A program made the translations under genes and the position numbers. This document shows, piece after piece, positions 7,523 to 60,979 of a DNA stretch of 64,000 nt (position 1 is the stretch's first letter; every line of letters starts with the position of its first letter). The notes under the pieces are model-generated. The model was given only the letters and a program-made list of their open reading frames with translations, searched no databases and was not told the DNA's origin. Origin of the DNA: Paraescarpia echinospica (lineage: Eukaryota > Annelida > Polychaeta > Sabellida > Siboglinidae); assembly GCA_020002185.1 (NCBI GenBank), contig CM034534.1, positions 14,019,636 to 14,083,635 on the forward strand. The letters are read 5' to 3'.

Positions 7523-7876
7523 CACTTTGAGCAGTCCTAAGGACTGGGTACTGCAGTGGAACTTGCCACTTTGAGCAGTCCTAAGGACTGGGTACTGCAG
7601 TGGAACTTACCACTTTGAGCAGTCCTACGGACTGGGTATTGCAGTGGAACTTGCCACTTTGAGTAGTCCTAAGGACTGGGTACTGCAGTGGAACTTGCCA
7701 CTTTGAGCAGTCCTAAGGACTGGGTACTGCAGTGGAACTTGTCACTTTGAGCAGTCCTGAGGACTGGGTACTGCAGTGGAACTTGCCACTTTGAGCAGTC
7801 CTAAGAACTGGGTACTGCAGTGGAACTTGCCACTTTGAGCAGTCCTAAGGACTGGGTACTGCGCTAGAACTTGCCT
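7523..7876. repeat. 44-bp tandem array grown from the SINE 3' module, 8 copies
   Basis: The unit cactttgagcagtcctaagg plus actgggtactgcagtggaac and ttgc recurs every 44 bases from 7523 (7567, 7611, 7655, 7699, 7743, 7787, 7831). The first copy is continuous with the SINE body (gtaaagcactttgagc), so the array arose by tandem expansion of the SINE tail. Copies differ at single sites. Confidence 0.9.
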
Positions 7877-29852: not shown

Positions 29853-30278
29853 TTGACCATTGAGCTTAATTTCTAAAGATTTAGGCGCAGAAGAAGTTAC
29901 TTTATATTATTATTGAATGACATATATTATTATTAGATGGCATCCATCTCTAATAAAAAGTGGACATGAACCTTTAATAGTGCAGCATAGAAACAATCAG
30001 TGCTGCCTGGATAACATGCGTTTATTCCTTACGCACGTACATTTTCCTGCTAGGTCTACTATCAAACTACGCAGTCCACATCCTACTGTAGCAGAGACTA
30101 CAGAGGCAGCATCATTGGCTGCATGTACAAGAACACACTGGTTGACCTGTAGTAGATTGAGGAAGCAGACTATGATGAACATGCTTACTACATAGTCACT
30201 ATACAGTGATACGATGAAGGCAAATGTCTTGATAGATAATTAACTTCTGGGTTTGTCGTCCCAATGCAAATTCCAACT
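29853..30278. other. Spacer without recognised feature
   Basis: No gene or element recognised. Short open frames overlap on both strands without recognisable domains. Confidence 0.4.
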
Positions 30279-32078
30279 ATTCCAGGACAGTGACTACAAC
30301 ATATAATGCAGACTTCAATGTGTACAGTGCATTTGTAAGACGGGCCCATCTTGTCTAACAAAGTATTCCAGGACAGTGACTACAACATATGATGCAGACT
30401 TCAATGTATACAGTGCACTTGTAAGACGGGCCCATCTTGTCTAACAAAGTATTCCAGGACAGTGACTACAACATATAATGCAGACTTCAATGTGTACAGT
30501 GCATTTGTAAGACGGGCCCATCTTGTCTAACAAAGTATTCCAGGACAGTGACTACAACATATAATGCAGACTTCAATGTATACAGTGCACTTGTAAGACG
30601 GGCCCATCTTGTCTAACAAAGTATTCCAGGACAGTGACTACAACATATAATGCAGACTTCAATGTATACAGTGCATTTGTAAGACGGGCCCATCTTGTCT
30701 AACAAAGTATTCCAGGACAGTGACTACAACATATAATGCAGACTTCAATGTGTACAGTGCATTTGTAAGACGGGCCCATCTTGTCTAACAAAGTATTCCA
30801 GGACAGTGACTACAACATATAATGCAGACTTCAATGTATACAGTGCATTTGTAAGACGGGCCCATCTTGTCTAACAAAGTATTCCAGGACAGTGACTACA
30901 ACATATAATGCAGACTTCAATGTATACAGTGCACTTGTAAGACGGGCCCATCTTGTCTAACAAAGTATTCCAGGACAGTGACTACAACATATAATGCAGA
31001 CTTCAATGTATACAGTGCATTTGTAAGACGGGCCCATCTTGTCTAACAAAGTATTCCAGGACAGTGACTACAACATATAATGCAGACTTCAATGTGTACA
31101 GTGCATTTGTAAGACGGGCCCATCTTGTCTAACAAAGTATTCCAGGACAGTGACTACAACATATAATGCAGACTTCAATGTGTGCATTTGTAAGACGGGC
31201 CCATCTTGTCTAACAAAGTATTCCAGGACAGTGACTACAACATATAATGCAGACTTCAATGTATACAGTGCACTTGTAAGACGGGCCCATCTTGTCTAAC
31301 AAAGTATTCCAGGACAGTGACTACAACATATAATGCAGACTTCAATGTATACAGTGCATTTGTAAGACGGGCCCATCTTGTCTAACAAAGTATTCCAGGA
31401 CAGTGACTACAACATATAATGCAGACTTCAATGTGTACAGTGCATTTGTAAGACGGGCCCATCTTGTCTAACAAAGTATTCCAGGACAGTGACTACAACA
31501 TATAATGCAGACTTCAATGTGTACAGTGCATTTGTAAGACGGGCCCATCTTGTCTAACAAAGTATTCCAGGACAGTGACTACAACATATAATGCAGACTT
31601 CAATGTATACAGTGCATTTGTAAGACGGGCCCATCTTGTCTAACAAAGTATTCCAGGACAGTGACTACAACATATAATGCAGACTTCAATGTGTACAGTG
31701 CATTTGTAAGACGGACCCATCTTGTCTAACAAAGTATTCCAGGACAGTGACTACAACATATAATGCAGACTTCAATGTATACAGTGCATTTGTAAGACGG
31801 GCCCATCTTGTCTAACAAAGTATTCCAGGACAGTGACTACAACATATAATGCAGACTTCAATGTATACAGTGCACTTGTAAGACGGGCCCATCTTGTCTA
31901 ACAAAGTATTCCAGGACAGTGACTACAACATATAATGCAGACTTCAATGTGTACAGTGCACTTGTAAGACGGGCCCATCTTGTCTAACAAAGTATTCCAG
32001 GACAGTGACTACAACATATAATGCAGACTTCAATGTATACAGTGCATTTGTAAGACGGGCCCATCTTGTCTAACAAAG
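30279..32078. repeat. 86-bp minisatellite, 21 copies
   Basis: The unit contains attccaggacagtgactaca, acatataatgcagacttcaa and gacgggcccatcttgtctaa. Starts at 30279 and 30365 give the 86-base period; 1800 bases equal 21 units minus one 6-base deletion (in the copy near 31180). Copies are almost identical. Two variants (tgtgtacagtgcattt and tgtatacagtgcactt) are interspersed. It lies in the space between the truncated Gypsy and the FReD gene. Confidence 0.97.
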
Positions 32079-34783: not shown

Positions 34784-34948
34784 CTGCTGTTCCGCTATAC
34801 GCTCCAAATGCAATTTTGTATTTGTCACATTCAGATGCCACAGTAAAATACGTATATTTAGCGTATTTTGTGACATTATTGAAGTCTTCTATGTCAAATC
34901 TTAGTTCATATTGTTTGCTCGACGTGATATCATGGAGATTGTCGTTGC
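34784..34948 (-). CDS. FReD exon 4
   Basis: Entry after tttacattgcag in phase 1; exit at gcag|gtaaca in phase 1. It encodes NDNLHDITSSKQYELRFDIE, DFNNVTKYAKYTYFTVASEC and DKYKIAFGAYSGTAG. This is the GN..LH.LT....YELRIDLED....YA.Y..F.V segment of FReDs, ending in the conserved YSGTAGDSL joint. An NVT glycosylation sequon is present. Confidence 0.92.
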
Positions 34949-35742
34949 CTGCAATGTAAAAATAACGAGGTTGTCATACCTGGTTACAACTATTAGTAAT
35001 GGAAATAACGATTGTCTGAAAATAATATTGTGTGAGTGAGCGTACGTGCTGCTTGCGTGATTGTATGCGTGCCTGCATAATCAATGTTTAAGCTGCTTCC
35101 TCAGCTCGTTTGCCCATCGCGAACCCGGTACTTGTATGCGTACTATTTTAAACGTCTAAAGAAATAACTTTGTTCCTTAGATCTGGTAGCTTGCTAAAGC
35201 CAATTGCCCGGTCGACATGTATCGCCCACCTATAGAACTTGTCCATCTAGAGCATTTCGCTAGACAACAAAACGCGAAACACGTGCGTCACTTTTGTCCA
35301 TTACCTTAATACATCATCACGATCGGACTCTGTCACTGGCTAGATTCGGCTTTAAACCTCCTTTTAGCTGACAATAAAAGTGGCGAACTTGTCATGTAAA
35401 AAAGCATGCCGAACAATTTCCAATCGATTCGTAAATAAGTTTACAGTTTGTCTGCTAATTACACAATAATAAACACGCACAAACTAGCATATGTCATAGT
35501 GAATAGTAGGTAAGTTTTCCTTTTTTTGCGAAATTACTCTCAAATATGAGGGTGGAACAAACATTTCGAATTGAACGATGTATATAACATCTATGCCTAA
35601 TTATAAGTCACGTGCCATAGTGGTGGTTACATAATTATAATCGTTACAATTGTTATGATACTGTGCTTATTTGGAAACATAACAGTATCGAATGCAACGC
35701 ATCGCTATGTAACAAAAATAGTGTTTGTTCAGTTTGACCCAC
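34949..35742 (-). other. FReD intron 3
   Basis: No element recognised. Confidence 0.5.
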
Positions 35743-35839
35743 CAAGCCAGAATTCGCCAGATACGTTGCCAAATCCTTCCTTGTAGCAGGTCCAGTCGAG
35801 GTAGAAATCAACGCTACCATCTTGGCGACGCTGTACCAC
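35743..35839 (-). CDS. FReD exon 3
   Basis: Entry after ttgcctacag in phase 0; exit at cttg|gtgggt in phase 1. It encodes [20 protein letters not shown] and [13 protein letters not shown], matching the FReD core (V.QRR.DGSVDF.R.W..Y..GFG...GEFWLG). An extra Cys sits in the DWTCY position, where most members have W..Y. The exon is too short to be a long open frame but is unmistakable by sequence. Confidence 0.92.
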
Positions 35840-35901
35840 CTGTAGGCAACAACCGGTACTAAATATTTTGCCTGATTATTATATTACACTGTTACACGCA
35901 T

Positions 35902-35932
<31 letters not shown>

Positions 35933-36253
35933 CAGAGTGGCACAGACACACACCTGAGCGTTTGCGAGTATGTGTGCATTAGCGAACATGAGCATGCGTG
36001 CGCAATGCCGGCCGGTTTACACTAAATGTGTGATATTTCACACTAAGAGGCGGGCCAAGCGAAATTGGAATGGTCACTTTATAATAATAACGATAACAAT
36101 AATAATTATTATTTGTTATTACTATCATTATTTATATATGTAAGAACCAAAAGTAACATAGCATGGAAAGTTATATAAATGAACTCTCGAACAATGTTGG
36201 ATAGTGGCCCATTAGCAGATACGGCATATTAATAGGTGTACTTCTGAGGAATA

Positions 36254-36373
36254 AATCAGAAGACAGAAGTGGACCTGGGCAGGACACATCAGCAGACTAC
36301 GAGATAACCGATGCACATCCGTATCACAACCTGGAGAGCTTACGACGGGAAACGATCTAGAGGAGTCGGTGGA
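36254..36373 (+). mobile_element. RTE-like LINE 3' end, first half of a split copy
   Basis: Collinear with the LINE tail at 55051-55170 in this window: shared words include agtggacctgggcagg, agcagactacgagataaccg and gggaaacgatctagagga. The copy stops around 36365-36373, and the rest of the same tail resumes at 46630. Confidence 0.85.
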
Positions 36374-36386
36374 TCAAAAAGAGCCA

Positions 36387-37365
36387 ATGGTATACCTTTG
36401 AATACCATTCTGTACCCTTGGACCATTCAATGGTAAATCAGGAGGACTCAGTGGTACTTTCAATGGTATTTGAAAATACCATTCAGTACCACTGGACCAT
36501 TCAATGATAAATCAGTGTCTCAATGGTACTCTCAATGGTATTTGAACATATCATTCAATACCATTCAATGATAAATCAGTATGTTTCAGTGTTACTCTCA
36601 ATGATATTTGAACATACCATTCAATACCACAGGACCATTCAATGGTAAATCATGTTTCAGTGGTACTCGCAATGGTATTTGAATATACCATTCAATGAAA
36701 AACCTGTATATCTCAGTGGTACTCTCAATGGTATTTGAACATATCATTCAATACCATTCAATGAAAAACCTGTATATCTCAGTGGTACTCTCAATGGTAT
36801 TTGAACATACCATTCAGTACCAACGAACCATTCAATGATAAATCAGGTTTCAGTGGTACTCTCAATGGTATTTGAACATATCATTCAATGATAAATCAGT
36901 ATGTCTTAGCGGTACTCTCAATGGTATTTAAACATACCATTCAATGATAAATCAGTATGTCTCAGCGGACAACATACAATTCAGTACCATTCAATAATAA
37001 ATCAGTAGGTATCAGTGGTACTCGTAATTGTATCTGAAAATATCATTCAGTACCATTATGACTCTCAATGGTATTTGAAAATACCATTCAGTATCACTGG
37101 ACCATTCAGTGATAAATCAGTAGGTGTCAGTGGTACTCTTAATGGTATTTGAAAAGTACCATCCATTACCTTTGAAAGGTTACCGACTAAACCACTGCAT
37201 ATATACAGTCGAGCCTCAAAAGTAAACTGGCAAATCTCAGCCATATTTGAAAACATAATTCACTATACTGAACGTTGACAGCGTACCTCTAGATACCATT
37301 GAACCTTCAGTGGTAAACTGAATGGTACCTTCAACTCAATGGTACCATAAACGGTAACTGCATAT
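36387..37365. repeat. Left terminal array of palindromic accattcaatggta motifs
   Basis: Irregular units of about 80-90 bases built from caatggtatttgaa, ataccattca, accattcaatgataaatcag and cagtggtactctcaatggta. Because ACCATTCAATGGT is near-palindromic, single-strand copies can form many hairpins. Confidence 0.85.
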
Positions 37366-39372
37366 GTTTTTGAAACGTATGTATTTTGTGTCATGTGCTC
37401 ATGTGGTGAATGCTTGAGTCAGAATAAAGATTATAATAAGTATATGTATGTCTAAGTTACGATGTTTTATATAACTCTACTGAATAAATTAACCCGCGAA
37501 TATAAACTCAATTCGCGCCGCTCCACAAATTTGAAATTACCCGTGAGTCATTTCGACGCGCGCCAACTTTTAAACTGATTTGGTTTTTTTCGCGGTCAAG
37601 GAAAGAAACATTATCAGTGGTAGATTTGAAGGTGTAACTTCAGGTAGTCCAGACGGATTACCAATGTATGGAATTCAGTAATCCGTCTAGAAATCTGGTA
37701 ATCCGTCAAATTCATGTAAAATGAAAAAACGTGACTACCATAATTTAAATTTCCGTGTATAATACACCCACATGTATTATACGCACCCTGACTTTACAAT
37801 TTTTTTTTAAAATTTCTATATCACCACGTATAATACGCACCCTGACGTTTGACATCAATATTTTGCTTAAATCCATCAATCCGTCTCAGAATCGTAAACA
37901 TGTCACCTATGCAAGTTACGATATTGCTGCCGGCTTGTCGCTCGTTAGTGACAAGCGTGTAAGCACTATATAACTTGTTTTGTAGCTTGACGATTGCGCA
38001 ACTGATTAAATCAGTGCTTGCTAGAACTTACATTATGTCGTTCTGATTTCACTTTTAAATTAACGCCAAATTATATTCTGAAATGCCACATGCAAACCTG
38101 GTACTTTCAACTGCGAAGCATACATGCGCTCCATTCGTCTTTATTTACATTCACAACATTTGCATTCACAACTTTAAACATGGAGTCACACTTGTTGACA
38201 CTCGACCCGTGACGCGGGCATCATTCACGTGATTCAGGAAATCACTTGTCATTTGTCCAATCACAGAATATTCCCGCGGGATCCCCGTTGTCTCCAATGG
38301 TGACACCTAGCAGAGTTTTGACATACTAGAAATCTAACATGAAGTCCAAACGGTAACTGCGTTTGGGTGATATATATGGAACTCAAAGAAAACGGTAGCC
38401 GAACTAAGATGTCTTTTGCGCTCAATTTTACTATTATAGTATGTGCCCACATGAACTCATAATGCTGGTGTACCTATTTTCCAACATATAGCGGTAATCC
38501 TGCCGGATCCCCGTAGCGTCGAGTCTGGTAATCCGTTGCAAAATCTGGGGTGCTCGGAGTAAAGGAATACTATTAAAATCGACCCCTGAATGGTCAATAA
38601 TGACTGTGAGCATGCACTATTCGGAAGGACGGAATATCCCAGGCTGAGATACTTAAAGTTTGCTGAGTAATTATCCAGACTATCAATAATTGTCCAAATG
38701 CTCCAGTTTTTTATTGACAGTACAATATTATACTAGCCACACACATTGTATTTTTATTGTTTTCTTTTCCATTTATTTCAGCTTGATGTCATCGCTGCAT
38801 GATGGCCAAAAGCAAGCTTTCTCCAGGCTGCACAACAATTAAATCAGTAACAGTGGTATAGTGTTTGTGTGTATGCATTTTGAATTATTGAATATTATTA
38901 TATCATATAATGTATACTGTACATATGTAAGGTTTCAGGGCAAAGCGCGATATATCAAAACTCAATTATACGCTTCATCGTTATAGTGTAAATGAAAACT
39001 TTGATATAATATTGGAATGTCTTAATAATACAAAATCATGATGATTGATATTAAGAGCCAAACTGTTTTTTATAGTAACTACTAAGACCTGTTTTTGGAC
39101 AACCATCTGCTTTTTCACTTCCCCTTAAAATTGACCACCTTTACAATGTTTATTGACATGCCATATGATAAGGCCAGACACGACAGGCAGATAGGATTAT
39201 TTTTTTATTTGTGGAAATTGTGTCTGCCCAAAATATCGAACGGATCATACTGGATAAAAATATATTTAACTTTTTCAGGCCAAACTCTTGTTTCTATGGT
39301 AAAAAACAAAATGGCCACCATTTTGAGCCAACATTGGCACATTTGGAAACACTGCCATTCTTTTTGGAGCAC
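37366..39372. other. Insertion interior, left unique part
   Basis: No gene recognised. The word ggtaatccgtc recurs at about 37665 (inverted), 37680, 37702 and 38523, hinting at a smaller nested repeat (about 37650-38540). The words gtataatacaccc and gtataatacgcaccc are also duplicated near 37757-37850. Confidence 0.4.
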
Positions 39373-39402
39373 ATATATATGGTCAAATCCAACGAACGGG
39401 GT
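39373..39402 (+). repeat. Internal inverted repeat, left copy
   Basis: The segment atatatatggtcaaatcc plus aacgaacggggt matches the reverse complement of 43614-43644 except for a one-base gap. It lies 2999 bases from the left end of the insertion; its partner lies 2985 from the right end. Confidence 0.8.
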
Positions 39403-39730
39403 ACACGGCATGTTTAGACATGTATCTTGAGAAATTATGCTGCGTTTATTCGGCTCGATGATACCTTTCGAGGGATGTATAGTTTGTTTTATCTAGTTTG
39501 AAAATCTTTGGAACTAAAGCTGATAAACTGGTCGTTTTTGGCCATTTTTTAAATGTTGACCTCTATATTTTTTTCAAATCAGTTAGTAATCATCGTAAAC
39601 CATGAATATGCACTGTGTTTATTACTTTATTAGAACGCCACGTGTGTCTATGTTGTTACTGCCTTGTGGTTAATGCAATTTGCAAATAACCTGATTTTGT
39701 TTACAATATATTGGTCATGGGGAATATTGG

Positions 39731-40435
39731 TGTTATCGTCCGAGAACCATTTTTCCTAATGGCATATTCATGAAAAATTATTAATCGATAACATGCATAT
39801 ATTTAGCTGTACATATATACTAACATGTGTAGTACCATAACGCACTGCTATTTTTCAGATGTACCTTTTGGTATTTTTGTTTCTTTTTTCTCCGCCGACT
39901 CAGGTTTGGGGAAGTTTTTCGCGTTATCATCCGGGGCCCTTGTTTCTTTCGTTTTAACTCAAACTTGTGAAGAATAGTAGGAGATTTTTATTCGTACTAA
40001 AGAACATCTCTCTGGCTATCCGAGCAGTCATTTGAACTCACCCAAAATATTTTCTCTGTATGATATGGCCCGGGAAAAGCATCAAGTTACCGTCCGATTA
40101 TAGTTATCGTCCGATCCGCGAGACGGTGGTAGTGTTTTGAGTGCTTTTGAGTAGCCTCTATCGTTCATCATCTTGTTAATGTGCGCTACAAAAGATCGCA
40201 CTAAGTAAGTATATTTCCTTATTTATTACTGTTTTGCTACATGTAGATTGTTTTTGCTAGACTATTCTGATCTACGGTAACAGTCATACACATGTTATTT
40301 ATGCGTGATAGTGCTCGAACTTGATGTTATATGTGCCTCTCAATGACGACCACATATCATAACGCATCAGCTATAATACTGCGGGATACAATGTTTTTAA
40401 AAGGGGGTCGATAACGATGATCCACGGATGATAAC
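39731..40435. promoter_or_regulatory. Cluster of GTTATCRTCC motifs, left side
   Basis: Direct copies: 39732 (gttatcgtccgag), 39923 (gttatcatccg), 40086 (gttaccgtccg) and 40103 (gttatcgtccg). Inverted copy: 40425 (cggatgataac). They precede the THAP ORF. Further inverted copies are at 41884 and 43438. Whether they are protein-binding sites is inference. Confidence 0.5.
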
Positions 40436-40746
40436 GCAATATGTTGTTAAATGCCATATCCTGGGAGAAAAAAAATTGCTAATAAGTATAAAAATATGCA
40501 TGTACATATGTGTTCTGCAATATAATGACAACCCCAAAACCACACATTTGCTGAAACATTTCTAAAATTGACATTAAACGGGACCTGTCTTGGTGCAGGC
40601 TTCGAAAAGTCTGTTTTCCGGAAATGCCGCGAGGGGCAGAATCGTGACGTCAGTTGTGGAAAACATTCCCGGGATCGCAAGCGTTCTCGGCGGCTGGATT
40701 TCTTTGGTAGATGTTTGAACTGGTATACATTCGTTCACATATAGAA

Positions 40747-41133
40747 ATGGTGAACAAATGTGTTGTTGGAAACTGCAACAATTCGAATCTGACTGGCCAT
40801 TCTGAGCACACATTTCCCAAAGAGCCAGTTACTCGGCAGAAATGGGAACGTTTTGTTCGAAACAGCAGGGCCGACTGGACGCATGCTACGGCAACTAGCA
40901 TTATTTATGGTTCGCATTTCATTGCGCCTGACGACTTCGAAGGCTTCGTACAATGGAAGATGGGTTTCAGGCGTAAGTCAGATGTAAAGAAATCTGTCGT
41001 TCCTTTGAAGAACACAACAGAGGCGAAGCCTACGGCGAATCGGTTACCGGCGAATCTGCGCAAGTGGGCCCGGTCAGTTGTCGGAGCATCTTCACTGGTT
41101 CATGTCTATACGGTGCCACAACGTGCTGACTAA
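40747..41133 (+). CDS. THAP-domain protein (zinc site altered)
   Basis: A 128-residue frame. I chose the start at MVNKCVVGNCNNS because THAP domains begin at the protein N-terminus with a few residues before the first Cys. Visible: C-x4-C (CVVGNC), F in HTFPKEP, KWERFVR with the conserved Trp, and the final helix/loop GFRRKSDVKKSVVP in the place of the AVP box. The third ligand, normally Cys in a CSxHF motif, is Tyr here (IIYGSHF; codon tat at about 40909), so C2CH becomes C2YH. THAP domains bind specific DNA sites and occur in transposases (P, Kolobok) and host regulators. No transposase domain follows. The upstream 150 bases are GC-rich with a tgacgtca word. Confidence 0.7.
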   Translation: MVNKCVVGNCNNSNLTGHSEHTFPKEPVTRQKWERFVRNSRADWTHATATSIIYGSHFIAPDDFEGFVQWKMGFRRKSDVKKSVVPLKNTTEAKPTANRLPANLRKWARSVVGASSLVHVYTVPQRAD

Positions 41134-41955
41134 CATCAACATTGTCGATCTCGCCAATGTCATCCTCACTGTCACCGAAATATATGATCAAACGTTTCGT
41201 GATCCGTGTCAAAATTGATATCGCTCTCTGAATTACTCGAGTAAGCCGCCATTTGTATCGAGTTGTTTACATGACACCGCGCGACTGCGCAGGGCCGCAG
41301 GCGTGAAGCCGCTGCACTAACTGACGGCGGAACCACAACTGACGTCACGTTTCAGCAACAAATGCAAACCCAGCATCGCTCGGGAGTTTCCGTAAAATGG
41401 CAAATTTAAAGGCTCTTTTTATGTCGTATGCTCATATACGATATTTAAACATTTTGGCACTATCATCATTTGAAAGGGTATCAACCGCTTGTTATTAAGG
41501 GACAGAGCACATTTTATTCCAGGATATGGCCTTTAATAGTAATACTGCATTAAGAAAGGCATTGTTTGAAATAGAGTCATAATATGCCATTGTGTGTGTG
41601 TTATATGATAGCCAATATATCTTCCTGTCCAATATGACTCATTAAGTGCATTAATTACCATTATGCGTGGCATTATATCGGTTTCGGTAGAATTTGCACA
41701 TTATTTCCTGATTTATTAGGATTTGGAAAAAGCTGTCATACCAAATAGTCTGCAAAATAGTAAAAGTTTAGCATTCTATCGCAAGCTATTGTATGTTACG
41801 CACACTGTGGAGAGGTTATTTTGGCCAAATTAAGATAAAATAGTGCTTTCTAGAGGGAGCCACGGTCGATAACCGTGACCCATGGACGATAACACAATAC
41901 ACTGGTAAAAGTAGTACTGCATTGTGCTGACTTGTTTTGTCTTGTCTTTTAACAG

Positions 41956-42085
41956 GCCAACATGGGGCTATAAAGAAAAAGGCTGACAATCTCATCAAGA
42001 GTGGAAAGATCATCACCAACAGCGGTGAATTCTGCAACAAGCTCAGAGAAGTGAAGACCACAATGAGGTGCAGCGATGCAAGGGT
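41956..42085 (+). CDS. Possible exon upstream of the charged ORF
   Basis: A good acceptor (cttttaacag, ending at 41955) is followed by an open stretch reading QHGAIKKKADNLIKSGKIIT and NSGEFCNKLREVKTTMRCSD. It could end at a donor gcaagg|gtatgc near 42087. The frame then stops. It may link to the charged ORF at 42226 or to the THAP exon; phases could not be settled. Confidence 0.3.
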
Positions 42086-42225
42086 ATGCTAGAGTCTTGG
42101 AAGGTGACAGCAATGCCGGGCATCATAAATGCACATACGATCGTGCCAGTGGGTCCATGCATGATTATTCGAGAGACATCATGCTTCCAAGACTGCTATG
42201 AACAAGGGGGTGTTTTGTACCCTAC

Positions 42226-42846
42226 GTGTGTAGGGTGGACAAAACACTTCTGCAGATCGAGAGGAAGAAGACAGCAGTGGCAGACAAGGAAACAGAAGTG
42301 CATGAGAAAGAGGTGAATGTGAGAGTGATAGAGGTGCAGGAGACAGAGGTCACGGAGAATGCAGCAAAGGACAAGGAGGTGCAGGAGAAAGAGGTGGATA
42401 TGATGAGGATTGAGGTGCAGGAGACAGAAGTCACGGAGAATGCAGCAAAGGAAAATGAGGTGCAGGAGAAAGAGGTTGGTGTGAAGGGGATAGAAGTGAA
42501 TGAAAATGAAGAGAATCACGGTGCAGTTAAAGAAAGGGAGTCGGAAATGGGAGTACAAAAAGTGGTGGTAGACAGTTGGTTGGCCGTTCGATTTAACAAG
42601 AAATGGTACACGGCCCGGGTGCTGCGTATCACGACCGATGGCATGTTTGAAGTAGCATACATGACCCGCACTCGAGGAAACTGGAAATGGGGGAGGCTTG
42701 AGTTTGGGATTGTGGAAGCCTCAGACATCATCAAGGTGGTATCATCTCCTACAGCGGTAGGCAATGTGTTCACCTTCAAGCCTCATGAAATAGAAGTTAT
42801 AAAGAAATGCCTTGCTATGGAGGAAAAGGACGATGATGATGAGTAG
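42226..42846 (+). CDS. Charged repeat protein with C-terminal Tudor-like barrel
   Basis: Up to 206 residues; the true start is unknown because it is probably a downstream exon. The N-terminal half has repeated acidic/basic units (EVTENAAKDKEVQEKEV and EVTENAAKENEVQEKEV), likely helical or coiled. The C-terminal part reads DSWLAVRFNKKWYTARVLRI, TTDGMFEVAYM, GNWKWGRLEFGIVEASDIIK and NVFTFKPHEIEVIKK. It resembles the small beta-barrel (WxAV.Y....Y.G.V......F.V..M...G..WKWP) found at the C-terminus of many uncharacterised transposon-linked animal proteins. That comparison is from memory and uncertain. It ends EEKDDDDE. An AATAAA follows at 43095. Confidence 0.55.
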   Translation: MCRVDKTLLQIERKKTAVADKETEVHEKEVNVRVIEVQETEVTENAAKDKEVQEKEVDMMRIEVQETEVTENAAKENEVQEKEVGVKGIEVNENEENHGAVKERESEMGVQKVVVDSWLAVRFNKKWYTARVLRITTDGMFEVAYMTRTRGNWKWGRLEFGIVEASDIIKVVSSPTAVGNVFTFKPHEIEVIKKCLAMEEKDDDDE

Positions 42847-42847
42847 A

Positions 42848-43012
42848 CGATGTGATGGACATTGGACACAGAGTAGACAATGTGATGGACACTGAGTAGA
42901 CATTGTGTTGGACACTGAGTAGACAATATGATGGACACTGAGTAGACAATGTGGTAGACACTGAGTAGACAACGTGATAGACACTGAGTAGACAATATGA
43001 TGGACAGTTAAA
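42848..43012. repeat. Short tandem repeat after the stop codon
   Basis: About seven imperfect copies of gagtagacaatgtgatggac plus act (22-24 bp), beginning at the stop codon of the charged ORF, in its 3' UTR. Confidence 0.9.
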
Positions 43013-43094
43013 AACGTTATCATACCAAAGTGTTGCCGATTTATACTGTTTTATTTGTATGTAAGTACATCTATTATATTTGTTAATCTTTTTA

Positions 43095-43100
43095 AATAAA
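43095..43100 (+). terminator. Likely polyadenylation signal
   Basis: AATAAA in tttttaaataaaattgg, about 250 bases downstream of the charged ORF stop. Confidence 0.5.
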
Positions 43101-43613
43101 ATTGGTTTAATGTTCGAGTAATGCCGAGTTATGGCTCAAACAATGACATTATTAATTTGCAGACATTGCTCAGTGTAGTAAATAATGTAGAGACAGTTTA
43201 CGTGTTTGTCTTTTTGTACAAGTAATGACAACACATTCGGAAAATACAGTAGGGCAATATTGAAGTGTGAAAAAAACTTCACCGCACTCTGATAACTCTA
43301 AATAAGTACCCCCACCCCAAAGTCACGCCGTTATAACATATGTCCACATGTTATCCATCGACAAAAAGTTAAATATCCAACACAACACCTTTGTACTGTT
43401 GGTTATGTCCTGCCAATGGACGACAACTTGTGGTCCTCGGATGATAACATATAGAACACACCTTTGAACTTCAAGCAACTGTAAAATCGTCAATGTTGTG
43501 AATTAGTATGCCCAATTTTTTGGGAAGTCGCCTCAATATTATGCACATTTAATACCACAACTGAACAAAAGATCCAGGCAATTCTATTTTTGACCTTGTG
43601 TGGAGCTCCAAGA

Positions 43614-43644
43614 CCCCAGTTCGTTGGATTTGACCATATATATA
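43614..43644 (-). repeat. Internal inverted repeat, right copy
   Basis: Reverse complement of 39373-39402: agttcgttggatttgaccat plus atatata, preceded by cccc. Confidence 0.8.
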
Positions 43645-45699
43645 ATTGTGATTCTTGCAAATCCATGTTCTGTATACATTCTATTGTGAGATGATCATAT
43701 AATTTTTTCGTATGTTTTAGTTTTAAAATAATTTGGTTGGTAAAGTGCAAAAAACTTGTTTTTTTTGCAACAAATGTGCTTATCTCTTTCAAACTATTGA
43801 TTATTAAACAAAATTCTGATCATTTTACACTTCTGTGTCTGCTGAATGCAACACTGAAAACCTTATTTGTATATAGCATAATTATTTCCACAGATATCCC
43901 ATTTCGAAATGAAGAAATTTGGGAAAAAATGTTTTTTATCAAACTGGTTTGTTATGAAAACATGGATTATTAAAAAGGTAGGTCATACATAAATTCATGT
44001 TATTTACTGTAAATTAACTATCAATCTATTCTAGCATTTTATATACGTTATGTTTAAGGTTCTTGTGATGGCTTCTGCAAGAGTTAATTTTTTTATTCAT
44101 AGCTCGAACATTTGTAAGTGTTGGTATGGATGCGTATTGTACAAAGCAAATATTGCACTAGCATCATATTATGTAAATACGTCCTTTAAAAAACTGGTAG
44201 TTGACATGTCTCAGTGGATATACTATCGAAATTCTTGAAGACGGTGACAATGTTACAAATACTTTTTTCTTCAAGAGTCCATTATTTTATTTATAATATA
44301 ATCATCACAATTAGCTTAAAATGTGATAGGCTTAATATTCATAGACAGCCAAGATATTAAACTGCCTCTTATTTTTTAATCTACGGTGAAATATTCCTTT
44401 ACTATGGTACCGGGATTTTTTCTGAAATTTCATCACATATATCATAGTTTGATTGCTGTTTTTGTTGCTTTCTAAAAACATACTTTTGCATATACATGTG
44501 TGTACATTTAAATTGTATGGCATGTTCTTGATTTGTATATGTCATATGAGCTAAACATGCAGACTATATAAATATATCTATATATATAAGATTATAACAT
44601 TACTTAATTACTTAATTGTATTAATTAATCAATTTAAACAACTTGTAGCAGTAAGCACCATGGACCGAGACGGGTACTATTTGAAATTTGACAGGTACTA
44701 TTTGAAATTTCACACATTTACCCAAAAGAATAGGTTGTTTATACCTTGCTGATGGTTAATGGCAGAACCCTGAGCTTGTTTGTTATAAGAATTGAACAAG
44801 CATGAATGCAGTTGGTAACGGTCGTTTAATAATTGTATCTTGTATCCAACAGGAACAAATCAAATTCATCACTCGATGAGATAAAGCTTAAGCGCTAAAC
44901 AACTGACACTATCATCGAGGTACTACAAACAATTATTAAATGATAAATCAGATTAGCAAAGGTAGGGTGGTAATGTTTCCCCCATCCCATATCAAACAAT
45001 AATGTGTATATACATATTCAGCACAGGTACAATAGACAATTGGAAGTGATAAACACAACTATCTCCAACGTTATGGTAACACTTGCAAAGAAAGTATAGG
45101 CACATACAAGTGCCGCAGGTTCATCACAGCCTGCTACCAAAGAAATTAAATATAATTAGGTATCATGCAACAAAGTATCATGATGGTTGAAGCAAATCTT
45201 CCTTTGTGTTGAAACGGCAAAGACTTTCGCTGCCATCATATTCCAACACAAACGGACAGTCAACACCCAACCTCGTTTTGATCCTGGGTGAATGTTTACG
45301 TAATTCGGAACGGTGGAAGACTATTGTGACAACGGATCGTTGACAGATTATTCGCATCACATTGCATAAATACTATTTTTGACATATGTAAAAATATTCA
45401 TGTGTTTGACGTGTACATGCAGTACTATACGATAGATATATAATAACTTATTTGTAACATAAATTGGAGGTGGTTGGAAAAATGTAAAATTTTTAAGTGA
45501 TAAAACCTTTTTTTATACATTTCCGAATATGTTCGGGAAATCTTCCCACTTCTGGGCAGAGACCAGAAGAAGTCCTCTGAAGTCGCCTTCAATATGCTTT
45601 GTCGTTCAACGCTTTCGAATGTCAAAAAACAGTCGCAAAAACTGTTGTTAATTTACCTTCACTATGTTTTCTGTTCTATGTGTGCTCAAAAGTAACACC
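43645..45699. other. Insertion interior, right unique part
   Basis: AT-rich, no gene recognised. A 25-bp direct duplication (acgggtactatttgaaattt / caggtactatttgaaattt) lies near 44669-44712, and a (TA)n run near 45773. Confidence 0.4.
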
Positions 45700-46620
45700 T
45701 TTATGTGCATGGTATTCTAAATGTTAATGTCAATGGTATTTTAATTGCATCATTTCGTGGTATATATCCCATATATATATATATATCCCTTTTTACTGGT
45801 GTGTGTTTGTAATACATGAAGTACCGATGGGCAATTTAACTGCCGTTCAGTAGTGCATGCACTACATTGAGTGATAATCAATGGTATTCAAAAGTTTATA
45901 TAAGCTTGAATTTGTTATTTAGAATACGCTGTTCAATGGATTTTTGAATGGTTTTCAACATATGCTTCAGTGGTATACCATTCGGTGTAATCCAATGGTA
46001 TTCTGAATGGTTTACCAATGGCATACCATAGATCGGTATAATAAATTATACTGACAAATACCATTGAAGACCATTCAGATTCCAATTCAATTATATTTTG
46101 AATGGTATTCTGAATGGTCCTCAGTGTTATGCCATTCAATGATATACCACTGAGGACCATTCAATACCATTTGATTAAAGACCATTCAGAATACCATTGA
46201 ATGATATTTTGAATGGTATTCTGAATTGTCCTCAGTGGTATATAATTCAATGATATACCACTGAGGACCATTTAATACCATTGGGTTAAATACCATTCAA
46301 ATACCCTTGGCATTAATACCCCCTAATACCATTGAAGACCATTCAGAATACCATTGAATGATATTTTGAATGGTATTCTGAATGGTCCTCGGTTGTATAC
46401 CATTCAATGTTATACCAGTGAAGACCATTCAATACCATTGGATTAAAATACCATTCAAATACCCTTGGCAATAATACCCCCTAATATCACTGAAGACTAT
46501 TCAGAATACCATTGAACAGTACAGAAAGGGTTAATTACAAGGATCATTCAAAATACCATTGAAGACCATTCAAATACCATTGGCCATAATAGACCATTCA
46601 ATGATATTTGAGTGGTATTT
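45700..46620. repeat. Right terminal array of palindromic accattcaatggta motifs
   Basis: Units such as gaatgatattttgaatggta, ttctgaatggtcctcagtgg, tataccattcaatg and ataccattgaagaccattca repeat down to 46617. Composition and motif match the left array, and most units read as its inverse. Confidence 0.85.
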
Positions 46621-46629
46621 TTTGTAAGG

Positions 46630-46765
46630 GGAGAGATGAACTAGACGGGTACTGAAAGGGCACCATCTGGCAGAGGATAGCGCAAGACAGACATATTTGG
46701 AAACGACATGCTGAGGCCTTCGCCCAACCACAGGACACAACGGCTGCACAATGATGATGATAATT
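46630..46765 (+). mobile_element. RTE-like LINE 3' end, second half of the split copy
   Basis: Continues 36254-36373: gagatgaactagacgggtac, gggcaccatctggcagagga, tagcgcaagacag, catgctgaggcctt and a gatgatgat tail. It is collinear with 55169-55320. Confidence 0.85.
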
Positions 46766-46837
46766 ATGACTTTTGAGGAAGTTCCTTTTGTACGGCAAAC
46801 ACAACAGAGCTAAAAACTACTCAGGGCGTATACCTAC

Positions 46838-54721: not shown

Positions 54722-55070
54722 AGAACGTTGAAAGCTACGTCTACCTGAGACAAAAACCAAGACAAGGAGATTCAAAGAAGGATCACCGCCGGCTGGACAG
54801 CTTTCGCCAAACACCGGGACATCTTGAAGGGTAACTTTGGAACCTGCTTGAAGAGACAAGTCTTAAATTCATGCGTCCTTCCAGCGATGGCATACGGCGC
54901 GGAAGCATGGGCACTCACCATCCAGGCAAAGAACAAGCTAGCAGCCGCACAAACAAAGATGGAAAGAAGTATGTTAAACATCACATATCGGGAGAGAAAA
55001 ACAAACATCTGGGTAAGACAGAAGGCAAAGGTCATAGACGTGATAAAAAAAATCAGAAGATAAAAGTGGA
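54722..55070 (+). pseudogene. RTE ORF C-terminal region
   Basis: Frame-shifted remainder of the ORF: ITAGWTAFAKHRDILKG, then LKRQVLNSCVLPAMAYGAEA and WALTIQAKNKLAAAQTKMER, the usual RTE C-terminal signature (R.VL..CVLPAM.YG.E.W.L). Stops before the KW.WAGH segment, which continues in another frame. Confidence 0.75.
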
Positions 55071-55330
55071 CCTGGGCAGGGCACATTAGCAGACTACGAG
55101 ATAACCGATGGACATCGCATATCACAACCTGGAGATCTTACGAAGGGAAACGATCTAGAGGAAGACCAGCTAGACGATGGAGAGACGAACTAGACGAGTA
55201 CTGGAAGGGCACCATCTGGCAGAGGATAGCGCAAGACAGGCAGATTTGGAATCGACATGCTGAGGCCTTCTCCTTCCGCACGGAACACAACGGCTGCACA
55301 GTGATGATGATGATGATGATGAATGGGGAA

Positions 55331-56488: not shown

Positions 56489-58019
56489 TCACTGTTTACA
56501 GAAACTAGGCAGGTTTACACGAAAACCTTCAAACCGTTTGGGTACACTCTTAACCCTAGGTGGACGACTGGGTGGAGCATGCACGGAAGGGGAAAGACTC
56601 GTACTAGCCTCAGTTGAGTACGGAGATCCCACTGGATAACTTACTGGGACTATTGGGGGTACTACAGTAGGAGCTGGGTCAGGTTCGACTGGCCTGTATT
56701 GCAACGGCTCAATGTCAGTGCTGACTCTGCGAAAATGACTTGTGTTTCGCGCCTTGACCTCCTGGCCTCTTTGTGCTGTTACCATTGTACCTTTCCTGTC
56801 TATGACCTCGAAAGGCTCATGTTGGAATTTGGGCACTAGTTTCCCTTGTTGTGCCACATTCTTCAACAACGCTATCTCCGATACCAATGTCAGACTTGGT
56901 TATCTTTCGTCGTGCTTCCGCATATTCCTTCATCTTGTTCTTTGCCGCCCAATCCTTTTGACGGAGTGTTTCATCCATTTCTTCAGCATGGACCTGGGGT
57001 AGCTTCATCTTCAACGGTACACCATTCAAAACCGTTGCTGGTGGTAATCCTGTCGAGGTATGCGGGGTTGCCCTGTAGTTTCTAAGAAACCGGTACAACT
57101 CTCGTTTCCAGGGTTTACCTTCTACCTGTGCACATTTGCAGACTTTGCCTATGGTTCTCATGAACCTCTCGGCTACACCATTCGCCTCAGGCCAATATGG
57201 TGTTACTCTTTGGTGGAGAAAACCTAGGTTGACAGCAAACCTCTTAAACTCTTCACTTTGGAATGGAGTTCCATTGTCTGTTTTCAGGTTGTCGGGAGTA
57301 CCTCTTGACGAGAATATCTTCTCGAAGACTGGAATAACTGTCTGAGCCGACAGGGATCTTATCACTTCGACTTCAGGGAATCTGGAGTACTCGTCCATGA
57401 CAACAAGGAGGTAGTCACCTGTAGGTAATGGTCCATAAAAATATGCGGATAGATGAGACCATTTCCTTAACGGAAGATCAGACATGACCAATGGTTCTCT
57501 TGGCTTTGGATCATAAACCGCTTTGCACGCTACACATTCATCAAGTAGCTTAGTTACCATAGCGTCAATTCTGGGAAACCAGACTTTCTCTCTGAGGAGA
57601 GCCTTGGTCTTGTTTATCCCTTGATGCCCTTCGTGGGCCAGATGGATTACCCTGTGCTGTAGACTCGCTGGAACCGCAATACGGGTTCCTCTCAACACTA
57701 ATCCATCTCGTGTTACAGTGAGTTCATTTCCAACTCTGCTGTACGATTGCATCGCTTCAAAGTCCACACCTGGATCTTGTCCATACTTTGTTTCAAGCAT
57801 GTACCATTTTCCAGTTAACAGAAGATCTTTCACAGCACTGAGAGTTGGGTCTGCCAACGTTGCTTCTAAGACTTATGTACTACTCACTGCTTTTGGGATA
57901 CTTTCCTCTGTGACTTCTGCCACAAGTTCTTCTCGAGAACTTCTGTCTGACACTTGCGGATGGCGAGATAAGTAATCCGACGGATTATCTTTACCCTGAC
58001 GGTACTCGATAACTGGCTG
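56489..58019 (-). pseudogene. Gypsy integrase region (catalytic residue changed)
   Basis: From the minus strand: zinc-finger part HEGHQGINKTKALL with CVAC (HHCC), then the catalytic core HLSAYFYGPLP, LLVVMDEYSRFPEVEV, LKTDNGTPFQ and PYWPEANGVAERF. The second Asp and the Glu are present, but the first catalytic Asp (normally in a DF.GPLP motif) is Tyr. A frameshift near 56870 separates the C-terminal part (GKLVPKFQHEPFEVIDRKG, VKARNTSHFRRV), followed by a Pro/Ser-rich tail. Two in-frame stops lie upstream, near 58018 and 57873. Confidence 0.88.
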
Positions 58020-59410
58020 TTATGGCAGTAGCCTCATAGCCCATCTTTCTAGTCTCAGGGGCAGCTTGGCGCCGGGATTTCCATACAACGTTACTAACGG
58101 CTTGTGGTCAGTTACCACTTTCACTGGCGCACCGTAGACATACACATGAAAGTATTCGCAGGCCCAGACAACTGCCAGCGCTTCTCTTTCTAGTTGACTC
58201 TTGTACCGCTGCTCAACTGGTTTTAGGGCTCTGCTCCCGTATGCAACTACTTGGGGCTTCTTGTCTTGGTATTGTACTAGCATCGCACCTAGCCCTACAG
58301 GGGATGCATCTACAATGATTTCTGTCTCCTTCTTCATGTCGAAGTAGGCAACGATTGGATACGTACCAAGGACACCCTTCAGCATCTCAAACGAGGACTG
58401 TTGTTCAAGCTCCCACTTGAACTCTTGCTTCTTGCATGTGAGCTTCCGTAGTGGTGCTGTTACTGTCGAGTAATTGGGAATAAACCTTGCGAGGTAGTTT
58501 GTCATTCCCAACAAACTCTGCACTTCTCCCACATTGACAGGCGGCTCCATTTCTAGGAGTACTTCTACTTTCTTCGGATCTGGTTCGATTCCGTTCTTTG
58601 AGAACATCATACCGTAGAATTCCATCTTTGGCTTTCGAAACGCACACTTGGCAAGATTTGCTGTGAGTCCATTCTCATCGAGCCTCTTCTGCACCTGATC
58701 CAAACTCTTGTCATGTTCGGCATACGCTTCCTCGTCGGTTTTGCCCTTACCGAACACAAATATGTCGTCGGACATATTGAAAGAACCGTCAATTCCTTCA
58801 ATGACATTTTCAACAACATTCTGAAACACTTCGCTCGCACTCGAAATACCAAAATTAAGGCGTTTGTATCGCCACAAACCATATGAGTGGAGAATGTGGT
58901 GATATAGCGAGACTCCTCTGCAAGCATCAACTGATGATAGCCTGATCTTAGATCAATCTTGCTGAACACACGCGCATTGTTCAGTTTTTGAACAATGTCA
59001 TCAACTGTAGGCGACGGGTGTCGCTCTCTCATGATTGCTTTGTTCGCCTGTCGCATATCGACACAGATACGAACCTCACCGGGCCTTTTGGGTTTCGGTA
59101 CCACCACTATTGGGGACACCCATGGAGTTGGACCCTCTACCCTTTCGATCACATCATTCCTTTTCAACTCAAGCAGTTCCTTTGTAACCTTTTGACGTTC
59201 ATGAAAAGGGATTCTTCTGTGGCGCTGAGCAACAGGGGGGATAGCTTCATTGATGTGAAGCTTTACCTCAAAGTTCTTTAACCTACCAATACCCTCAAAT
59301 ACCTTCGGGTATTTCTTCACTTCTGGGCACTCAGTATTTCCGACATTATGCACCACATGATCTGCAACCTGAATGAGTCTGAGTTTTTGACTCACATTTA
59401 CACTGAGCAA
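58020..59410 (-). pseudogene. Gypsy reverse transcriptase and RNase H
   Basis: Frame one (59410-58607): NFEVKLHINEAIPPVAQRHR, GPTPWVSPIVVVPKPKRPGE, VRICVDMRQANKAIMRERHP and FSKIDLRSGYHQL (motif A Asp). Frame two (58877-58020): WRYKRLNFGISSASEVFQNV, SFNMSDDIFVFG (DD of motif C), FYGMMFSKNGIEPDPKKV, then RNase H with IIVDASPVGLGAML, SQLEREALAVVWACEYFHVY and VVTDHKPLV. The two frames meet at a frameshift near 58880, just after the FSTHMV/GLWRY joint. All catalytic motifs are visible. Confidence 0.9.
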
Positions 59411-60650
59411 ACATCCAGTTTCCTTTCACTACATAGAAAACATCACTAGCAGTTTTCTTACCACACACAATAGTACTATGAAACTTTCCAATGGTTACTA
59501 TACGTGTACCACCATATGCATTCTGTTTGTCATGACATGTTTCAAGACGAACACTCTTGAATTTGTTCTGAAACGTACTCTCATCAATTAGACTATACGA
59601 TGCACCACTATCAGCTGTCATCATCACTGAACACTTTTCAAACTCGATTTTGAACTTCGGCGGTTTTGCTACAAAAGTGCTATTGTAAACACCATGTATA
59701 CTACTTTCACAAACATCACCCTCAGTGTTTTCGGAAACATCATTTATACTATTTTCACAACCATCACTCTCCGTGCTTTCATCATTTACAGTCCCTACTG
59801 TAAATACGTAATCCTCAACCTCATCACTAACTTCACGAACTGATTTCTTCACAAACTGTTTGTTTGTGGTACTTTTCTGACCTTTCTTAGGAAAAAAATT
59901 AGCAAAATGGTTTCTTCCATGACACACAAAACACTGTTTACCAAATGCCGGGCAAGTTTCCTTGCCTCCTACTTGCGGAAAACCTTTCCCACAGTATCTA
60001 CATTTTGTTACACCCTGTTGTGGTTTTCTACGTTTCGACTGTCCGAACTTGCGACCGATTGTCTTGGCATCTTGTTGGATGCCTGTCATGTCTTTTTCAA
60101 TGTCCAAACTTTGGGCTTGCGCTAGCTCGTTATTTCGACCCGCTTCGATTATGTCGCCTAGCGTCAACGCATCGTTTGTCAGTCCTTGATTACGCAGTTT
60201 TGAGTCTGTGGTTGTCTGTATCACGTGTGATTTAATTTCACCGTTAATGTCGTTGAACTCGCAACTGGCCGCTGCCTGGCGGAGACGGGTATGGTAAGCA
60301 TCAATTTTTTTGCCACTCTCTTGACGTATGCGTCTAAACACGGCACGTTCATACTCACGATTAACCTTCGGCTTGAAGTATGCTGTTAGCGCTGTTTTGG
60401 CCTGTTCATAAGTTGTCCCTCTGTTCGGCAAGTTGACAAAAATATCGAATATTTTACTGCCAACTGCATGCAACAACAGTGCTCTCTTCTGTCCTTCGTC
60501 AGTTACTGCGATGGCGGACATATAGTTCTCAAATCTGAGTAGCCACTTATCCCATTTGGGACCTAACGAGGCGTCACTATCGGAAAGTTCGCTTTCAAAA
60601 GGCTGTACGCACGGCACATTTAATGACGTTGCCATGACTGCATCCTGCAC
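59346..60650 (-). CDS. Gypsy gag-protease ORF
   Basis: A 434-codon open frame. The gag part: MATSLNVPCVQPFESELSDS, WDKWLLRFENYMSAI, then the typical retrotransposon gag stretch FVNLPNRGTTYEQAKTALTA and FRRIRQESGKKIDAYHTRLR. Two zinc knuckles follow: CRYCGKGFPQ...CPAFGK region and CFVCHGRNHFANF, the latter missing its last Cys. An acidic spacer precedes the protease core VMMTADSGASYSLIDESTF (DSGA active site). The end of the frame runs into a frameshift relative to pol near 59400. Translation of pol is probably by a different frame or by fusion. Confidence 0.88.
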   Translation of the reverse strand: MQDAVMATSLNVPCVQPFESELSDSDASLGPKWDKWLLRFENYMSAIAVTDEGQKRALLLHAVGSKIFDIFVNLPNRGTTYEQAKTALTAYFKPKVNREYERAVFRRIRQESGKKIDAYHTRLRQAAASCEFNDINGEIKSHVIQTTTDSKLRNQGLTNDALTLGDIIEAGRNNELAQAQSLDIEKDMTGIQQDAKTIGRKFGQSKRRKPQQGVTKCRYCGKGFPQVGGKETCPAFGKQCFVCHGRNHFANFFPKKGQKSTTNKQFVKKSVREVSDEVEDYVFTVGTVNDESTESDGCENSINDVSENTEGDVCESSIHGVYNSTFVAKPPKFKIEFEKCSVMMTADSGASYSLIDESTFQNKFKSVRLETCHDKQNAYGGTRIVTIGKFHSTIVCGKKTASDVFYVVKGNWMFAQCKCESKTQTHSGCRSCGA

Positions 60651-60979
60651 AAATCTACTCCATGCAGATACAGTCTACTGAATCACGACTGCTGGCTTGT
60701 TTACTAGTTGTACACAGTAAACAACCGACTGGATACGAATGTCACATGTTCGCAGTATGCGTGGTTCCCGCTCATTTTGCACACGTCACTGTCTGTGGTA
60801 TGGTTCTCGTGGCTGACAATACGGCCAACGGATTAAAGTTGAACAACACGTTCATAACGGACTTAACACTAACCGTTTCTTCATATACGCATTTTACACA
60901 CGTCTCTGTGCTGTGTGGTAGACGACACTACTCACACACTTGTCTTTTGGTTCTGTTTCGCGCATCTCTCGTCGCCAAA

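Follow-up and report, generated by a model that had tools for sequence, protein, structure and literature searches.

The 64,000-nt window analysed here lies on C4 of the 1.08-Gb assembly of Paraescarpia echinospica, and all copy searches were run across the same genome. Within it, the tail of a long interspersed nuclear element (LINE) is interrupted by a block of about 10.26 kb that holds palindromic arrays just inside each end, a THAP-domain open reading frame (ORF) and a charged, Tudor-like ORF. An earlier note on this DNA had read the block as a single large DNA transposon carrying both ORFs as cargo. The copies show that it is instead a nest, in which an outer element sits in the LINE tail, a 4.26-kb element with the Tudor-like ORF sits in the outer element, and a 1.08-kb element with the THAP ORF sits in the 4.26-kb element. 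The outer layer belongs to a multicopy, non-coding family with CCCTTACAAAAAA tips and a 2-bp target site duplication (TSD); in our judgement it is probably a non-autonomous TRC-type CACTA (EnSpm) element, here enlarged by nested insertions.

The left half of the LINE tail (36250-36364) matches 55047-55162 of an unbroken copy elsewhere in the window at 91%, the right half (46630-46769) matches 55179-55319 at 89%, and both are collinear with it, as had been described earlier. Joined around a 2-bp GA duplication, the flanks read GGTGGAGAGATGAAC, where the unbroken copy reads GATGGAGAGACGAAC; removing one GA gives back the unbroken LINE sequence, save for substitutions and about 10 bp gone from the left half beside the junction. 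The interruption proposed at 36374..46629 thus stands, with its end moved to 46630. The damage to the left tip makes the window copy weak when taken alone, and a single contig shows the right junction, so that two unrelated insertions, or a misassembly falsely joining the LINE halves, might be considered. Either is nevertheless extremely improbable, given that the right tip and the GA duplication are intact, that a collinear unbroken LINE copy exists, and that contig C650 carries the left junction with identical tip damage in a sequence about 96% alike over window positions 34908-38875. The left junction is therefore not the chance product of one assembly path. The end of C650 also matches the Tudor-like ORF over 118 residues without a difference, and this contig likely represents the other haplotype.

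The layers of the nest are separated by empty sites in other copies. The site 39380|43635 is empty in all six outer-element copies that span it (the other four of the ten compared stop short), and C12:18.3M, C6:31.5M and C2:32.48M likewise align across it without the 4.26-kb segment. Eleven other copies of the Tudor-like element were read. Nine of them reach 40450|41533, all without the THAP segment: eight carry the exact empty TTAA, and L057 has other sequence at this point. L053 and L055 stop short of it. The eight read GTTGTTAATAGTAAT, against TTAA, 1,082 bp and a second TTAA in the window. The THAP ORF is therefore a third-level component and belongs to a passenger rather than to the outer element. 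In the window alone, one tip pair does enclose the whole segment, as one large transposon with THAP and Tudor-like genes as cargo would have it, but the empty sites in other copies, together with the inverted tips and flanking duplication that each insert has of its own, leave that reading with next to no credibility. What had appeared to be a large THAP cargo transposon is a stack of smaller elements, cleanly resolved by copies in the same genome; what survives of the earlier reading is a DNA transposon insertion with subterminal palindromic arrays.

The outer element has the tips CCCTTACAAAAAA...TTTTTTGTAAGGG, defined across copies as CCCTTACAAAAAAGAGYCAATGG and GGTATTTTTT(T)GTAAGGG. In the better copies the CCC-starting terminal inverted repeat (TIR) CCCTTACAAAAAA stands at both ends, and the outermost bases vary in some. 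What was earlier described as weakly inverted tips is really a damaged left tip, about 6 bp of which have been lost from the window copy, and better copies begin CCCTTACAAAAAAGAG; the TSD of the window copy is consequently read from its right tip and the unbroken LINE. Aligning the copies with their flanks fixed both the boundaries and the TSD, for which 15 separate copies, each read at both tips, were tabulated. Left out of this set were C8:56.57M (flanks identical to those of C2:0.03M), C5:58.40M and C291 (common flanks and a degenerate right tip), C12:36.66M (no right tip within the stretch read) and C12:18.3M (without a right tip). The TSD is exactly 2 bp in 14 of the 15 copies (or in 13 of 14 if the window copy is set aside), and the 2-bp flanks in the 14 are GA, TA, CA, AA, AT, GC, CT, CG, GG, TA, AG, AA, GA and GT. 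A length of 1 bp fits three of the 15 and a length of 4 bp fits one, as does the length of 3 bp that had been suggested from a possible GGA duplication. A boundary shifted one base at both ends left at most 1 of 14 copies in agreement, whatever the length, and one shifted at a single end at most 3 of 14.

Searches with the terminal kilobases returned many copies, so the insertion is not the isolated single copy that would have spoken against a transposon. The left kilobase gave at least 71 matches, in pieces (40 of 275 candidates scored), and the right at least 156, also in pieces (40 of 206 scored). Allowing up to 3 mismatches, the left 28-mer was located at 130 places in the genome and its reversed control at 0, while CCCTTACAAAAAAM has 261 occurrences and its reversed pattern 35. 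Left tips facing each other about 2 kb apart were seen twice (C13:37710292-37712295 and C13:37728200-37730204) and are possible double-left-end elements.

The palindromic arrays proposed inside each end are borne out by word counts, with 11 CCATTCARTGG-type words in the left 803 bp and 5 in the right 800 bp, against shuffle means of 0.04 and 0.03, respectively, and 0 in three other stretches of the window. Their suggested capacity to form hairpins agrees with predicted folding as single-stranded DNA, in which both arrays fold better than all 20 shuffles made of each (z -9.8 and -12.9).

The block shows no known transposase, as had been remarked, and the longer ORF set looked for in other copies was not seen in those checked. 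Complete copies measure 6.16 kb (C10:25.58M, at C10:25578610-25584770) and 4.39 kb (C9:44.62M), and no ORF exceeds 165 residues in these two or in C12:18.3M, the three copies checked; the outer element is therefore non-autonomous at best. A 165-residue minus-strand ORF of the C10 copy was rejected as a gene of the element, being broken in the other copies translated. In the part alignable in seven copies, the mean pairwise identity at 38782-38838 (0.975) is reached by 1 of 192 windows, the mean being 0.913. A good 3' splice site directly precedes this stretch, which from its sequence could be a leftover exon. The window copy has meanwhile lost about 1.6 kb of outer-element interior. It has also gained a 0.96-kb stretch that is not at this place in the six copies read there, and part of which (38241-38475) is found again next to the copy at C3:43.5M, outside the element.

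Table 1. Positions of the LINE target, the nested elements and their parts in the window (TRF, Tandem Repeats Finder).
Feature	Position	Strand	Evidence
Left half of interrupted LINE tail (target), ending in GA copy of TSD at 36372-36373	36250..36373	+	91% to 55047-55162
Outer element with nested insertions, probably TRC-type CACTA and non-autonomous; damaged left tip reads TCAAAAAGAG instead of CCCTTACAAAAAAGAG	36374..46630	+	Tips and 2-bp TSD from 15 copies
Palindromic array, left subterminal; CCATTCAATGG-type words; TRF periods of 56-74 bp and their multiples	36401..37176	+	TRF, word counts, folding
Stretch of ~0.96 kb, nested insertion of unknown kind, GA each side; adjoins ~0.6-kb outer-element loss	37625..38587	+	Junctions vs 6 copies
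Best conserved interior stretch, exon-like; TTTATTTCAG precedes	38782..38838	+	0.975 mean pairwise identity
Possible 8-bp TSD of nested Tudor-like element, left copy, ATATATAT	39373..39380	+	Copy junctions
Nested inverted-repeat element, tips GGTCAAATCCAACGAAC, holds charged/Tudor-like ORF	39381..43635	+	Empty site in other copies
TTAA, left TSD copy of innermost element	40447..40450	+	Single TTAA at empty site, 8 copies
Innermost 1.08-kb element, inverted tips ATGCCATATCCTGG / AGGCCATATCCTGG, TTAA-flanked, Kolobok-like	40451..41532	+	Copy comparison
THAP-domain ORF, 140 residues	40711..41133	+	Pfam PF05485, E 3e-8
TTAA, right TSD copy of innermost element	41533..41536	+	Empty-site comparison
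Charged repeat and Tudor-like ORF, 214 residues stop to stop	42202..42846	+	No Pfam match
Possible 8-bp TSD of nested Tudor-like element, right copy, ATATATAT	43636..43643	+	Copy junctions
Stretch of ~0.66 kb, nested insertion of unknown kind	44739..45399	+	Absent in 5/5 copies read there
Site of ~1-kb internal deletion relative to C10:25.58M	45634..45640	+	Copy comparison
Palindromic array, right subterminal; TRF periods of 111 and 157 bp	45930..46620	+	TRF, word counts, folding
Right TIR CCCTTACAAAAAA, read on minus strand	46618..46630	-	Copy comparison
Right half of interrupted LINE tail, starting with GA copy of TSD at 46631-46632	46631..46769	+	89% to 55179-55319
Unbroken LINE tail, empty-site reference	55047..55319	+	Alignment to both halves

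The ends of the outer element resemble those reported for animal TRC elements, whose TIRs start with CCC and which have 2-bp repeats at the insertion site; of 14 SmTRC1 copies, 7 show such repeats (PMC1636069). SmTRC1 of Schistosoma mansoni and its relatives in Tribolium and Aedes share with the outer element the CCC TIR, the 2-bp repeats, an animal host and some insertions into other repeats, whereas SmTRC1 has a 54-bp TIR and a Transposase_21 ORF where the outer element has a 13-bp TIR, no long ORF and palindromic arrays (PMC1636069). On the strength of a CCC TIR and 2-bp repeats, the 5.8-kb Spongebob_HMa / EnSpm-4N1_HM of Hydra was assigned to TRC (PMC4298943). Its transposase is unreadable (stops or frameshifts), and it differs in its TIR, given as CCCAGCCAACATTGAC (17). 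In plant CACTA elements, TNPA recognises subterminal repeats that can form stem-loops, and the Tgmt* elements of soybean likewise have a 13-bp imperfect TIR and asymmetric, stem-loop-capable subterminal direct and inverted repeats, although they are coding plant elements with a CACTA tip and a 3-bp TSD (PMC2613891). The outer element thus combines CCC tips, a 2-bp TSD of variable sequence and subterminal arrays, and is without a Transposase_21 ORF; the genome has four Transposase_21 matches, all above the cut-off (C4:43673163, C4:43681766, C222:157462 and C12:11656384). By analogy with these systems, it is likely a non-autonomous CACTA element of the TRC (EnSpm) type that moved in trans. The outer element would be cut and pasted by a CACTA transposase supplied from another place in the genome, and the subterminal arrays could serve as the binding region for the transposase or an accessory protein, as in plant CACTA.

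Several points weigh against this assignment. None of the four Transposase_21 matches was linked to CCCTTACAAAAAA tips, in a comparison that stopped short of their flanks. The copy at C4:5.70M, alone among the 15, has no TSD, and the outermost tip bases in C10, C269, C9, C836 and C3:45.42M differ from CCCTTAC/GTAAGGG. The right tip is often missing (it was correctly oriented in one of ten left ends read about 12-13 kb downstream), and the tip boundary was chosen while inspecting the same copies that were used for the TSD count. Finally, a 2-bp TSD alone leaves the superfamily open, ISL2EU, which also makes 2-bp duplications, included. The element could accordingly be a non-autonomous member of another 2-bp-TSD superfamily (ISL2EU or an undescribed one) with its own unseen transposase, a reading with which the lack of a transposase tied to the tips, the 13-bp TIR and the absence of a long ORF inside would agree. 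We regard this as rather unlikely, since CCC tips with a 2-bp TSD are reported for animal CACTA/TRC, stem-loop-forming subterminal repeats are known in CACTA, and Transposase_21 is present in this genome.

No autonomous partner with the outer-element tips was found among the tips collected, so the TRC-type call is one drawn from the ends of the element. An 18.75-kb copy at C6:31.5M was considered as a possible autonomous element, but the 16 kb read of it consists of the outer element and ORFs that, by eye, resemble long terminal repeat (LTR) retrotransposons and other transposases. The segment between a facing CCCTTACAAAAAAA pair at C2:32.48M is the outer element again, inverted. Downstream of copy C5, a transposase-like ORF contains 12 bp identical to the tip, a match ascribed to chance. 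No paper title describing the outer family was found, in a search that lay outside Repbase. The outer family therefore probably has no name yet, in line with the earlier suggestion that the element is perhaps undescribed, although it represents a kind that is already known. The locus contributes an animal family, probably of CACTA type, whose limits are well defined and whose subterminal palindromic arrays are long. It lends itself to studying what binds these arrays and how satellites arise from them.

In the latter respect, the right end of the outer element occurs in tandem with a 1,875-bp period, with three matches per strand in two clusters (C3:23106800-23113800 and C3:23148148-23152643; one spacing is 1,881). 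The three repeats of the plus cluster that were read have a common variant tip and an identical flank, and this cluster is a satellite derived from a transposon end. As a separate observation, the copies at C10:65.22M, C11:44.17M and C7:45.99M keep the left end, break off at differing points in the left array and continue into unrelated sequence. It is conceivable, though rather unlikely, that this is a CACTA-type family with long, expandable palindromic array ends, in which hairpin seeding or unequal exchange varies array length between copies, and whose right end became the 1,875-bp satellite. If true, the transposase-binding region of a transposon would have been caught becoming satellite DNA.

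The ORF of the 4.26-kb element exists as a charged ORF, as proposed, and its Tudor-like character is a matter of appearance, as it has no Pfam match at E 1. Its matches to PDB are weak (E 0.27 or worse), and none of 150 candidates qualified as a homologue at E 0.001. It has at least 170 matches genome-wide, with 150 of 279 candidates scored, and the right tip of the element recurs in L050 and L055. The element is flanked on both sides by ATATATAT. An 8-bp target duplication is a criterion for P and hAT elements, both of which were considered, but the length of this duplication is ambiguous because the target is an AT repeat, and the window copy of the ORF, the one compared, matches no Pfam family, a P or hAT transposase domain included. 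The Tudor-like ORF also occurs in a tandem series at C6:18726885-18782694 with a period of about 5.6 kb, and a 23-bp minisatellite downstream of it (42863-43006 in the window; also L054 and L056) is strongly variable in copy number.

The THAP ORF of the innermost element was recognised correctly in the earlier note. THAP domains are linked to Kolobok transposons, and this piece is likely a Kolobok derivative. No Kolobok DDE transposase was found in the 140-residue ORF, in which THAP is the sole domain. The innermost element agrees with the Kolobok superfamily (PMC9587614) in its TTAA duplication and in one end, which starts AG under the 5'-RR...YY-3' rule, but differs in that its other end starts AT and in being without a transposase domain.

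Elsewhere in the window, tandem arrays lie at 933-3325, 30278-32078 and 7523-7875, with units of 88, 86 and 44 bp, respectively, and 94-97% matches. On the minus strand, 56817-60674 holds long ORFs that, by eye, resemble LTR retrotransposon gag-pol.

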